Assembly: GCF_018446385.1 (NCBI RefSeq)
Contig: NC_055991.1
Coordinates: 114,733,794 to 114,797,793 of the forward strand
Length of the DNA: 64,000 nt
Direction: 5' to 3'
DNA from: Zingiber officinale
Lineage: Eukaryota > Streptophyta > Magnoliopsida > Zingiberales > Zingiberaceae
This document shows, piece after piece, positions 3,910 to 11,983 of this stretch (the first letter of the stretch is position 1; each line of letters begins with the position of its first letter). Under the pieces are notes generated by a model, which made no database searches, had not been told where the DNA came from, and worked only from the letters and a program-made list of their open reading frames with translations. The position numbers were made by a program, and so were the translations under genes.

Positions 3910-4390
3910 AAACAAATTTTTAAAGGGATGGAAAGGTACTATGTATTTTTTATTTTGTATTTTATTACAAAATAAAAGGAGATAGAAAACTTTTCTCAGA
4001 TTTTAATAGTAAAATGGTGATTTTATAATTATAAGAATGAAGTGGCAATTTCGTAAACTTTGGGGGCGAAAGTGCAACTTCTTTGCGATAAATTAGGGAA
4101 GTCCACAGCGAGCTCTTCAACCGCGCACGTCCTAAGACGCAGGAAACGACGGCTCCTCTTCCGCCATGGACAAACTCTGATCGATCCAAACGAGATTTTT
4201 GCCTTCGGGATTCAATGTGAAAGGTTGAACTTTTTACTCCGAGCAGGTTTGTGCTTCTGTGCTTGGTTGTACTGGATTCGGTTTTTGCGTCTTGCTGATT
4301 CGAAGCTGATTCCTTTCTGAAGTGATTTGGGGGAAACGAGATCGATTTGGTTTCGAAATTGAGGCGGATTTGATCTCGCTCTCGCGAAGA

Positions 4391-7300
4391 ATGAACTTTA
4401 ACAAGCATGCTATTATGGGGGGAGCAGCAGCAGGGGGAGATGGGTTGGGAGCAGAGGCGAACGGCGGCAGCCGGAGCATTGGACTGGCGCGGCAGTCGTC
4501 CGTCTACTCGCTGACGTTTGACGAGTTCCAGAGTTCTCTGGGGGGAGTTGGGAAGGACTTCGGATCCATGAACATGGACGAGCTCATCAAGAACATCTGG
4601 ACCGCGGAGGAGAGCCAGACCTTGGCGAGCGCCGTTGGATCTCGCATCGAAGAAGCTTGCCTCCAGAAGCAGGGATCCTTCACCTTTCCCCGAACTCTAA
4701 GCCAAAAGAGTGTGGAGGAGGTCTGGAGGGACCTTGTCTATCCGGTCCAGGCCCCCCCGGCTACTGCCGGTGCCTCGTACCAGCACCAGCACCAGCACCA
4801 GCAACAGACACTGGGCGAGATTACCCTAGAGGAGTTCTTAGTCAGAGCTGGTGTAGTCAGAGAGGAACCAGCTACATCCAGATCGATTGCTGATGCTGGC
4901 GATAGCAGTGGCCATAACAGATCTATCAGGAATGCGCTCTTCGGTGATCTACAAGTTGCAAACAATGCATCCGGTGTTTCGCTAGGGTTTCTCCCACAAG
5001 ATCGAAGCAGTAGAGATGCGGTTGTTAGCAACCCGACTTCTAATAGTGCTGCAGCTGCTTTGGCGATGATGGTCGCCAATGACGGAATTCCATTGGCAGC
5101 GCCACGGGGTGATGTTAATTTAGCTAGTCCCCGGGGAATTCGAGGGGCAGGCCTCATGGGGTTTGGAGAAGTTGGGTTGAACAATGGCTTGATGTCTGGA
5201 GCTGTTGGTTTGGGTGCAAGAGCAGGTATCGTTACCGCTGCATCTCCAGTGAACCATCTACCTTCAGATTCACTTCCCAAGAGTGGTGGAGATCAATCTG
5301 CTATCTTATCAGTTCCATACGTTTTCAGTGGAGGTCTGAGAGGAAGGAAGTCCGGTGCTGGGGAGAAGGTGTATGAGAGGAGGCAGAGGAGGATGATCAA
5401 GAACAGGGAGTCAGCTGCTAGATCACGTGCCAGGAAGCAGGTCGGCTTTCTTTTGCACTTGTTGAGCTTGATATTATGCAAACATTGCTATATGGCAGCT
5501 AGGCGACAGCATGGTATTTCTCTCTAGAAAATTTCACAGTGCCTTAGGCTATTCATTGACTGGTGGAATTATAACCGCCATTGATTGAAACTGAGTTTTG
5601 ATTTACTTAAAGTATACTCAATAGTTATCACATATATTGCTTGCCTTTCTTTTGTAGCAACAGGATTACGTAGTTTATTCTTTCTGTTAATCATATTCTT
5701 GAACGTCTTGTGGTATAAACTCTTTGCAGACCTTTTTTTAAAGTTGTGGCTGATTCAAAATCTAAACTCTTTGTAGGCCTTTTTGGGTGCTAAATAAATT
5801 GACCATGTTTTCCTTAATTCCTTTGATAGATGTACTTTTACATGTTCTTGATACTTGATTGGATGAACCTTTTCTGCAAGGCACAATTTTACTTCAGTTT
5901 AAGAGTTCTCTTCTATGAAGAATGGTCACCAGTTTTCACAATTCTATTTAGTTACGAGGTTACAAAACAAACAGTGTGCTGACATAATAAATGTTGTAGG
6001 GCTAAATATGCCTCACAGTATAGAGTAACTACATTATTTGCATTTTCCATATAGGGAGATGAGTTATAATAATAGTCTTCAAAGAAGAAGATGATAAGTT
6101 AGTGTCAACCAGCCACCTAGGAAATTCTGATTTATGATTTTACTGGGATTCTTCAACTAAAGTGCCACAGAAGATCTATCTAACTGATAGACTCTAACCT
6201 GAGTGGACAATTTATATAAACCTGTCACTTCATATAGATGTTTAAATATTTGGCTGATTGGGCATCATTATATGAAATTTTAGTACTAAAATGAATAATT
6301 GATCAAACAGAAGAAAACCCACAGGAAAATGTTTGACAAAAGCAAAATCAGTTACACTTTAATGACACGATAATAACCTCTTATCTTTTTAAAACTTGAA
6401 TAATTTTGTTTCAGGATAAGTCATCAAGCTAGGCAGACTCAAATAGACATCATGCTCTTCAATACTATGATTGGCTAGCTGATTGATAGAGTTTTATGCC
6501 TTTGCTTTATTTCTTTTGTTAATGGAAAACAACAAAGTGGTTTTTGGGCCACTGTTTCTGTAATCGACAACTTGTGATTTATAGGTTGAGATTTGGTCTT
6601 TTTTATCACATATATTGACATGATATTCCATCAGGCATATACCATGGAGTTGGAACTAGAAGTGGCAAACCTAAAAGAAGTAAACCAAGAATTGCAGAAG
6701 AAACAGGTAAAACTCTCACAAGAATCAATCTTCTGACAAATACATGATGAGAGAATTGAATAATCCTTCATTTCATATTCATATGAATTATGAATATCAG
6801 ACTACTGAGTATCCTAAGTTCTTATTGTTTTCTTATTTCAATTACAATAAGCCCATAACAATAATGGCAATACTGATATCGGATGTCAGATCTCATTTCA
6901 AAATTGATTAGATCTATAAGAATACGTTTTTGTTAAGTGTTGTTACTGTCTTTCATTTTTTAACCTTAATATTCCACTTTTGGGGGGAACATAGAAGTAT
7001 GAACAAATATCACCCAATTATTAAACAAGTTATTTATGCTTCTTCTGTCTTTTTTTCCCCTAGCCGTGGTTTATATGTAATATATGCAGTTTGTGTGATA
7101 ACTATTTGTCACTTGGATCAGGCTATAATTGAAAAATGCATTAGCAATTTAATGTAGATCATAAATCTTGAGACTAAGCATTTTTTACTTCATGAGTTTA
7201 AATTTCTAAACAAAATATTTTCTCTTCACGCTAGCAATTTTGTAGCTAAATATCCTTTTCTAAACAATTTTTTTCACAAATTTTCAGGCAGAAAAAATGG

Positions 7301-9305: not shown

Positions 9306-9314
9306 CACTGTGAG

Positions 9315-9586
9315 GAGTCCAGATCCTCTGCGCCCGCCTCCCGTGCGCCCTCTGCGCCCGTCGCTACGCGACAAAAAATCCACGCGCTAAGCACGTGCGT
9401 TTCTCCGCTCCAATAATAAAACTCAACTCCAACGCACATATATCGCTTCCTGCTGATCGGTCTGTTGACCGATCAGCAAGAATGCTGATCGGTCAGAAGA
9501 CCGATCAGCAGGAATGCTGATCGGTCTGACCGATCAGCAGGAATGCTGATCGGTCTTGCTGACCGATCAGCATTCCAGCAGGATTT
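9315..9586 (+). repeat. Left terminal inverted repeat of the Pack-MULE
   Basis: It is the inverted counterpart of 10343-10585. The outer half holds a G-box, CACGTG, at 9392-9397. The inner half (about 9448-9576) is a run of TGCTGATCGGTC blocks alternating with their reverse complement GACCGATCAGCA, so it can fold into several hairpins. It has one more hairpin unit than the right arm, which accounts for most of the length difference of 272 versus 243 bp. Confidence 0.9.
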
Positions 9587-9614
9587 TCATACGCAACTTA
9601 CAATGTTATCTTTC

Positions 9615-10316
9615 TCACTGCAAGACTAGGCAACCTTCTGCAAGGTTACAAGTAGCTCGATCGATAGGGGCTAATGACTGAAATGAGGTTTCCTTTTTCT
9701 CTTCCAGCTTGATCTTTTCCTTCGTAGACTCCTCTAGTCCAAGGGCCCCAAAGATGTAGTCTTCCACTTCTTTGAACCTTGCCTCCGAAAGAGAGACCTC
9801 AGCTAATAGCCTCCAAGCATATTGCTCTGTTGCCTCTTCGAAGTCTTTCTTGCGCTTCAGCACCATATGCCCACTGATCTCCCACACAGCAGGGTTCACT
9901 TGAGTCTCTAGGATCTCCTCACTCACTTCGCCCAAGGCTTGTTTTTCGGCATAACACTGCCAGAATGATACGATAAATAATACCTCTTTATTGACTGATA
10001 AATCTAAGAGCTATATTTTGAATATGACTAGTAAGTTCATGTGATCAATAGAAGTTTACCTGGGGAAAGAGAAAGATCCTCCAGCCTGAATCAGAAATAA
10101 GAACATTAAATGGGATATTGTTCTCTTGAAGACACTTGCAAGACTTGGAAACTACATCAGATAAGTCTTTCAAACTAGTTCCTCCCTCGTAAACAAGGCC
10201 CCTCACTGGATAGTTCAGCAATAGTGAGATCTTCACTCCACCATGGCACAGCAGACCTTTAGCAATTGGAACTCTTTGAGTAGGAGCTCTCTCCACAGGA
10301 AAAGGCATGGACAAAA
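9615..10316 (-). pseudogene. Captured 3' part of a GDP-L-galactose phosphorylase (VTC2/VTC5-type) gene
   Basis: On the minus strand an exon at about 10316-10060 encodes PFPVERAPTQRVPIAKGLL, GVKISLLLNYPVRGLVYEGG and LQENNIPFNVLISDSG. It ends in a GT donor. After a 103-bp intron (10059-9957) the last exon, 9956-9615, encodes CYAEKQALGEVSEE, NPAVWEISGHMVLKRKKD and LLAEVSLSEARFKEV, and ends ...CLVLQ then a stop. This matches the C-terminal part of plant GDP-L-galactose phosphorylase, the committed enzyme of ascorbate synthesis. The N-terminal half, including the HIT-type catalytic motif, is absent. Retention of the intron shows capture at the DNA level, not through mRNA. The exons have no internal stops, so capture is recent or the reading frame is under constraint. 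It could be transcribed from either terminal repeat; I see no evidence that it makes a working enzyme. Confidence 0.9.
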
Positions 10317-10342
10317 AAGAAAAAAAAAAAAGTTAATAAAGC

Positions 10343-10585
10343 AAATCCTGCTGGAATGCTGATCGGTCAGCAAGACCGATCAGCATTCCTTCTGATCGGT
10401 CTGCTGACCGATCAGAATTCTTGCTGATCGGTCAATAGACCGATCAGCAGGAAACGATATGTGTGCGTTGGAGTTGGGTTTTATTACTGGAGCGGAGAAA
10501 CGCACGTGCTTAGCGCGTGAGTTTTTTGTCGCGTAGCGACAGGCGCAGAGGGCGCACGGGAGGCGGGCGCAGAGGATCTGGACTC
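10343..10585 (-). repeat. Right terminal inverted repeat of the Pack-MULE
   Basis: Its reverse complement matches 9315-9586 with few substitutions and one missing hairpin unit. It carries a G-box, CACGTG, at 10503-10508, about 470 bp upstream of the DUF1685 start codon. The inner half has the same alternating GATCGGTC/GACCGATC hairpin blocks as the left arm. Confidence 0.9.
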
Positions 10586-10810
10586 CACTGTGAGGCGTGC
10601 GGGTCCCGCACGACATAACTTGCCCAACCAATTAAGATGCAGGTAGATATTCTGTGTCAACGAGACGCGTAAAAGGAACCAAATTCCAGCTTGTGTTATT
10701 TCTATTATACTTGACGGGGACATGACCACCAAGTGGTGGGCCTGCACGGGCCAGCCAATAAGAACAGTGGGTCTTGGTTGAGTAATTGAAGACAACGCGA
10801 TGCTGTTTTA

Positions 10811-10829
10811 CCACGTCGATAATATAAAA
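10811..10829 (+). promoter_or_regulatory. Putative core promoter of the DUF1685 gene
   Basis: A TATA-like TATAAAA at 10823-10829 is preceded by an ACGT-core motif, CCACGTC, at 10811-10817. It lies about 150 bp upstream of the chosen ATG, a usual distance for a plant 5' UTR. The assignment is by motif and position only. Confidence 0.4.
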
Positions 10830-10976: not shown

Positions 10977-11983
10977 ATGGGGCTCCTCAAGATGCGTTCG
11001 TGGTCGCCGGACTCCGACCGCGAGGAAGCGTGGCTTCGCCGCCAGGCGATCCACCGCAGCCGCAGGGGCCGCCTGCGGAGCGTCACCGACGAGGACCTCG
11101 ACGAGCTGCGCGGATGCATCGACCTGGGCTTCGGCTTCGACTGTGTCTCCGCCGCTGACCCCGCCCCGGCAAGGAAGCTCTCGGAGACGCTCCCGGCGCT
11201 CGACCTCTACTACGCCGTCCTCCGCGGCTCCTCCTCCGCCGCGGCCTCTCCGGCATCCGCCTACACGGAATCGTCCTCCGCCTCGCCAGACGTCGACGGC
11301 AGCGTCCCCGTGCCCTTCTCCTTATTCTCCCCAGGTATCGATTCCGGTGGCCACCATCTCGATTCCCACTAACAATTCGCTTCGCCGGCGGCGGATGCTA
11401 ACGTGCGCCGCAAGACAGGTATCCGTGGCTTTCCGCATAGGAATTATATGCGGAGCATCCTGTTACGTCAGATTGAAAGGGGTATGGCTTGAACGGCCGT
11501 CCATCTGGACCACTGGCCGAGTCGTAGCGTGACTTCGTCGGTGGACTTATGGCAATAATTAAATTACAATTTGCATGAAATAATTGATTTTTTTATTAGA
11601 ATTATTTAATTTGATCAACTTCGTTCTGTTCTAAAGAATTTATTACAAATTTAATTGATATAAATAAATAATTATTAGTCCATTTTTGATGAAAATTGTA
11701 ACCATGTCAACATTTAATAGCATTATCTAAACTTGCTGATAACGCAATTTGATAAAGTATACAATTCACAATAAATTCATGAAAACTTCAAAGTTTTTAG
11801 CCCCTTGGCAAACCTCCCAACAATTTTGAATTTCCTTTTTATATTCCTTTAAATATATAATAATATTAATTAATTAATTAATAATTTAATTAATTATGTG
11901 AAGGTGAGACGGCAGAGGAGAGGAAAGGGAGGCTGAAGCAGTGGGCCCAAGTGGTTGCTTGCACCGTGCGCCAGCGTCGCTGA
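10977..11983 (+). CDS. DUF1685 family protein, 2 exons
   Basis: The exons are 10977-11334 and 11904-11983, joined by a GT-AG phase-1 intron of 569 bp; the protein is 145 aa. The start ATG (MGLLKMRSWSPDSDREEAW) begins the conserved block, and longer in-frame upstream sequence looks like untranslated leader. Family hallmarks in order are SWSPDSDREEAWLRRQ, VTDEDLDELRGCIDLGFGFD, LSETLPALDLYYAVL, a serine/alanine-rich linker, and after the intron LKQWAQVVACTVRQ at the C-terminus. DUF1685 (PF07939) is a plant-specific family of unknown biochemical role, so none is assigned. Exon 1 is very GC-rich, as is common in monocots. The Pack-MULE sits in its upstream region. Confidence 0.92.

Follow-up and report, generated by a model that had tools for sequence, protein, structure and literature searches.

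How the last exons of an ascorbate-pathway gene came to lie between long inverted repeats in the ginger genome, and whether they do anything there, are the questions raised by a window of 64,000 nucleotides of Zingiber officinale (C6:114733794-114797793). The original prediction was that a recent Pack-MULE had captured the last two exons of a VTC2-type gene, GDP-L-galactose phosphorylase (GGP), and that transcripts of the captured copy could tune ascorbate synthesis. The ginger genome is described as phased, 3.1 Gb in size and organized in 11 chromosome pairs (PMC8342452), and we searched an assembly of 3,090,333,446 bases in 211 contigs, in which neighbouring contigs (for example C5/C6, C7/C8 and C15/C16) are treated as homologous pairs.

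Structure of the element

Positions 9315-10585 of the window form a 1,271-bp non-autonomous Mutator-like element, flanked by an exact 9-bp target site duplication, CACTGTGAG, at 9306-9314 and 10586-10594. Its inverted arms measure 272 bp (9315-9586, plus strand) and 243 bp (10343-10585, minus strand); their outer parts are 93.5% identical over 229 columns, and their inner 48 bp are identical. The left arm ends in the 18-base family terminus GAGTCCAGATCCTCTGCG, for which a zero-mismatch genome search returned 77 matches (40 forward and 37 reverse; reversed control pattern, 0). The perfect duplication and both repeat lengths had been predicted as found here.

The interior carries no transposase gene, and consists of 732 bp of GGP sequence on the minus strand (9587-10318) and 24 bp of A-rich filler (10319-10342) that resembles the interior of another family member, L030. 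Read in the direction of the gene, and compared with the parent, the captured piece begins in exon 5, of which the first 5 bp and the acceptor site are missing (10060-10318), continues through intron 5 (9957-10059, 103 bp), which retains GT/AG and has a 10-bp deletion relative to both parent alleles, and ends with the coding part of exon 6 (9615-9956), terminating in GCLVLQ-stop, followed by 28 bp of 3′ untranslated sequence (9587-9614). The spliced frame, which had been expected to be free of internal stops, contains none; read from the ATG at 10306-10308, it is 196 aa long. The predicted combination of two exons and an intron thus held for the intron, exon 6 and the stop, with exon 5 truncated and the intron shortened, while the GGP interior, placed originally at 9587-10342, ends at 10318, where the filler begins. 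This right border of the capture falls inside an A-tract common to parent and filler, which would be compatible with microhomology and proves nothing.

Within the left arm, an array of short palindromic units (CTGATCGGTC...GACCGATCAG) at 9447-9579 has a strong predicted RNA fold: the stretch 9445-9586 folds at -108.7 kcal/mol, compared with -45.2 (sd 3.8) for shuffles (z -16.6). In a fold of the whole element, the arms are able to pair across 235 bp. The palindromic units recur at 29-bp spacing in 9447-9579 and 10353-10453, their number differs among copies, and the left arm is 272 bp long in the window copy as against 301 bp in L002 and L003.

The parent gene

The original prediction proposed looking for a VTC2-type parent in the same genome, and one was found: 9587-10318 corresponds to a single unbroken genomic stretch, intron included, of an intact six-exon gene on C16 (L013, 98% identical) and of its allele on C15 (L014, 96%). 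Identity to the parent ends exactly at the element arms, and the parent loci on C16 and C15 have no flanking arm sequence. When spliced, the six C16 exons encode a 436-aa protein with the motifs HLHFQ and KKRP; we claim a complete protein for the C16 allele only. Plant GGP has been described as having an H-phi-H-phi-Q motif, a KKRP signal and 430-431 aa (PMC6878703), and the GGP/VTC2-type name we propose rests on these two published motifs and on length. Neither the fragment nor the parent found a usable match in Pfam, NCBIfam or PDB, and at a cut-off of E ≤ 1 the C16 parent protein matched no Pfam family and no PDB sequence; the Pfam and PDB nulls carry no weight against the GGP name. The captured part starts downstream of both HLHFQ (the histidine triad) and KKRP, and the fragment contains neither.

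A protein search of the genome located further GGP-like loci on C7/C8, C5/C6, C13/C14 and C3/C4. The matches at C13:33223334-33224599 and C14:25572218-25573483 are each in one piece (424 residues, 72%, one internal stop), and look like an old intronless GGP copy.

A single capture and its copies

Searching the genome with the GGP part of the element yielded 19 matches, and scoring all of them gave nine full copies, two partial ones (C4:51.64 Mb and C22:22.70 Mb), both alleles of the parent, and six matches to exons of other GGP genes. A single-copy event is excluded by the nine full copies; the element is real as first described, and the view of it as a single element is incomplete by the other full and the two partial copies. 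Every full copy (9/9) carries the same 3 substitutions (9592, 9724 and 10136) and the same 10-bp intron deletion, none of which is present in either parent allele, and we therefore conclude that one capture was followed by amplification.

Exact 9-bp target duplications, each of a different sequence, surround seven of the nine full copies; L017 has an imperfect duplication and L004 has none. On the homologue C5, flanking sequences that align at 96-98% join at one CACCGTGAG with nothing inserted, from which it follows that the window insertion is heterozygous. With this site included, the homologous or near-homologous counterpart was empty at 8/8 compared sites, representing eight of the nine copies (L007, with a repetitive left flank, was left out), although for L008 the counterpart belongs to a tandem cluster and could be a paralogue. 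As a control, another insertion of the family, L022/L023, was present on both homologues. The parent elsewhere in the genome, the empty homologous site and the distinct duplications at other copies bear out the predicted capture by a Mutator-like element, and the C5 site, with its single target copy, is the empty allele that was to be looked for and agrees with the predicted recent insertion.

The site of L004 and its counterpart L080 (C2:10.98 Mb and C1:10.24 Mb) differs in that 64 bp present in the counterpart are missing beside the L004 insertion; this could be either an insertion accompanied by a deletion or a later loss.

Age and donor allele

The copies are close to one another: relative to its nearest copies, the window copy shows no substitution of its own, nothing separates L002 from L003 across 1,302 bp, and among L005, L006 and L007 there is one indel at most. 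Compared with the parent alleles, the window copy shows 8 differences in 732 columns from C16 and 18 in 731 from C15, and the two alleles differ from each other at 18 of 741. Using a rate of 5.5e-9 per site per year, which we derived from a Ks of 0.7 and 63.57 My given in PMC8342452, the capture would date to roughly 1 My ago and the allele split to about 2.2 My, both rough figures from small counts in a mostly coding segment. When the C7/C8 paralogues serve as outgroup, the element joins the C16 allele at four sites and the C15 allele at one (10223), while 9948 is ambiguous, suggesting that the donor was probably the allele now on C16.

Probable arm exchange among family members

Three lineages of copies can be told apart, and their interiors differ by 1-2 of 732 positions, as opposed to 7-10 of 242-243 in the left arm and 4-6 of 233-267 in the right arm (the arm of L017, which has an internal deletion, was excluded). 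The excess of arm over interior divergence gave Fisher values of 3e-5 to 3e-4, which serve as a guide only, nearby sites being non-independent. CpG decay accounts for few of the left-arm differences, since just 1 of 10 differences (L001/L004) and 2 of 9 (L001/L008) are CpG transitions. In the window lineage, the left arm differs at 3 of 160 positions from arms of other family members and at 9 of 160 from the left arm of L005. We consider gene conversion or arm exchange with other family members the likely explanation of the arm divergence.

Related elements and a candidate transposase

Four 6.3-kb relatives are bounded by the same terminus and are 96-99% alike over long stretches. Two of the four contain an intact 725-aa frame, and in one such protein (L053) we identified MULE (E 6e-30), FAR1 (E 3e-21) and SWIM (E 9e-8) domains; exact 9-bp duplications surround L052 and L053. 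A 6.3-kb relative of this FAR1/MULE/SWIM kind is likely to be the mover of the Pack-MULE copies, which would then transpose in trans. The Jittery group (group 36) is described as having an N-terminal FAR1, a MULE transposase domain and a C-terminal SWIM finger (PMC6446971). The ginger autonomous relatives are alike in domain order and have arms within the 39-292 bp listed for that group, whereas the ginger family makes a 9-bp target duplication and the table for the group gives 8 bp or "not indicated" (PMC6446971). Domain order only thus suggests Jittery-type membership for this transposase.

Other family members carry interiors of their own. L025 (1070-2406; C16:114.70 Mb), with an exact 9-bp duplication, contains part of a NAC-type gene (Pfam NAM, E 7.7e-26). 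L020 (C1:92.80 Mb) and L056 (C12:64.06 Mb) have a common 1.9-kb interior with a coiled-coil-like frame, for which Pfam gave no match, and 175 bp of the autonomous element. Downstream of the transposase in L053, a frame at 4147-4551 has GYPP-type repeats and no Pfam match, and is possibly host-derived.

Possible effects on neighbouring genes

A DUF1685 gene (PF07939, E 1.3e-21) has its ATG 391 bp downstream of the window copy, and the start of its first coding exon occupies 10977-11369 on the plus strand. Pfam families were found in three of the seven flank reading frames tried (DUF1685, SOK and NAM), the other four having no Pfam family. Mutator-like elements have a known preference for genes (PMC6446971), and these gene neighbours may reflect it.

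Could the main effect of the insertion therefore be on this neighbour, with the copy on one homologue altering the expression of that allele? The short distance to the ATG and the intact, element-free promoter region on the other homologue speak for this reading, and in ginger the alleles with the largest expression differences are reported to sit nearer transposable elements (PMC8342452). However, between the gene and the insertion a TATA-like stretch near 10822 appears by eye to be undisturbed, and we regard such an effect as unlikely on balance.

Possible effects on the parent gene through RNA

It was also proposed that antisense or hairpin transcripts act on GGP. If the copies supplied small or antisense RNA, the output of the parent GGP gene, and through it ascorbate, would be lowered. 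The fragment has 712 21-mers, 566 of which match the C16 parent exactly and 484 the C15 allele, and the arms can pair as described above, so that matching small RNAs, if made, would target parent GGP and silencing of the parent gene by the copies is possible. In maize, gene pieces captured by transposons have been reported to serve as reservoirs of siRNA, with the capacity to affect donor genes (PMC13317346). On the other hand, only 26 of the 712 21-mers match each of the C7 and C8 paralogues, meaning that other GGP genes would escape, and the same sequence features occur in Pack-MULEs generally and are not distinctive here. Taken together, we judge this effect to be fairly improbable. An extension of the idea, in which the dose of matching copies would differ between haplotypes and probably between clones and GGP output in a clonal crop would be tuned by small RNAs of all nine, strikes us as quite doubtful.

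Reads bearing on this proposal can be assigned in one place only. None of the 1251 21-mers and none of the 1248 24-mers of the element is missing from the other eight copies, and unique-hit filtering, as originally suggested, would therefore discard every internal read; small-RNA reads are assignable to the window copy only at its junctions with the flanks.

Protein-coding potential of the fragment

A working enzyme is ruled out, the histidine-triad motif not having been captured. That the fragment nonetheless yields a functional C-terminal GGP peptide of 196 aa would accord with the open spliced frame and with the GT/AG borders present in the window copy, L004 and L008. Against such a peptide stand the absent catalytic motif, frameshifts in four of the nine copies (L005, L006, L007 and L017), and loss of the ATG in L002 and L003. 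All five coding substitutions since capture change the protein, a number too small to test selection. Because the histidine-triad motif is missing and 4/9 copies are frameshifted, a protein role is unlikely, and we find the peptide reading highly improbable. Passenger DNA devoid of protein function is the most likely status of the captured GGP piece.

Classification and meaning

Pack-MULEs are recognized by long terminal inverted repeats, a target duplication of 8-11 bp, an interior derived from a host gene and the lack of a transposase. The ginger element has such arms, a 9-bp duplication, a host-gene interior and no inner transposase, and it was inserted precisely into what the other homologue preserves as an empty site. 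A Helitron or another class is excluded by the inverted arms and the 9-bp duplication. The notion of a processed (retro) copy or a segmental duplication of GGP that gained its flanking repeats later has similarity to the gene alone in its favour and virtually no chance of being correct, given that the intron is retained, that parent identity stops precisely at the arms, that nine copies have the same arms and borders, and that the empty sites, which refute such an origin, show arm-to-arm units to have been inserted.

We conclude that the element is almost certainly a young, multicopy Pack-MULE, several parts of its history being our reconstruction. In the scenario we favour, a Mutator-like element of the FAR1/Jittery-type transposase family would have picked up the 732-bp genomic GGP piece, and this one capture would have been multiplied by repeated transposition, helped by the related 6.3-kb autonomous element, into nine full copies, largely after separation of the haplotypes.

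As a case the element is new, and as a kind it is known. Like the Pack-MULEs of rice and other plants, it combines inverted arms, a 9-bp duplication, an intron-bearing gene fragment, absence of transposase and amplification once the capture had occurred; in rice, roughly one Pack-MULE in three is multicopy (36%, 481/1337, quoted in PMC8277862). It differs from them in its host, ginger, in having captured GGP, and in that empty counterparts are directly visible in a haplotype-resolved assembly. Among the matches listed by our literature search, no title or abstract described a ginger Pack-MULE that carries GGP. Duplication of part of GGP by a Mutator-like element has been proposed for grasses, from synteny only (PMC6878703). 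That case concerns the same gene family, said to have been moved by such an element, but its element features are said to be undetectable now and the whole gene works, whereas in ginger the element is intact and holds a 3′ fragment only.

The ginger copies offer an intact, datable instance in which part of GGP has been duplicated by a Mutator-like element. As nine near-identical partial copies, they confound the annotation of ginger GGP and the mapping of reads to it. Nearly all of them are heterozygous in a phased genome, which makes allele-versus-allele tests possible for the donor gene and for the genes beside the insertions.
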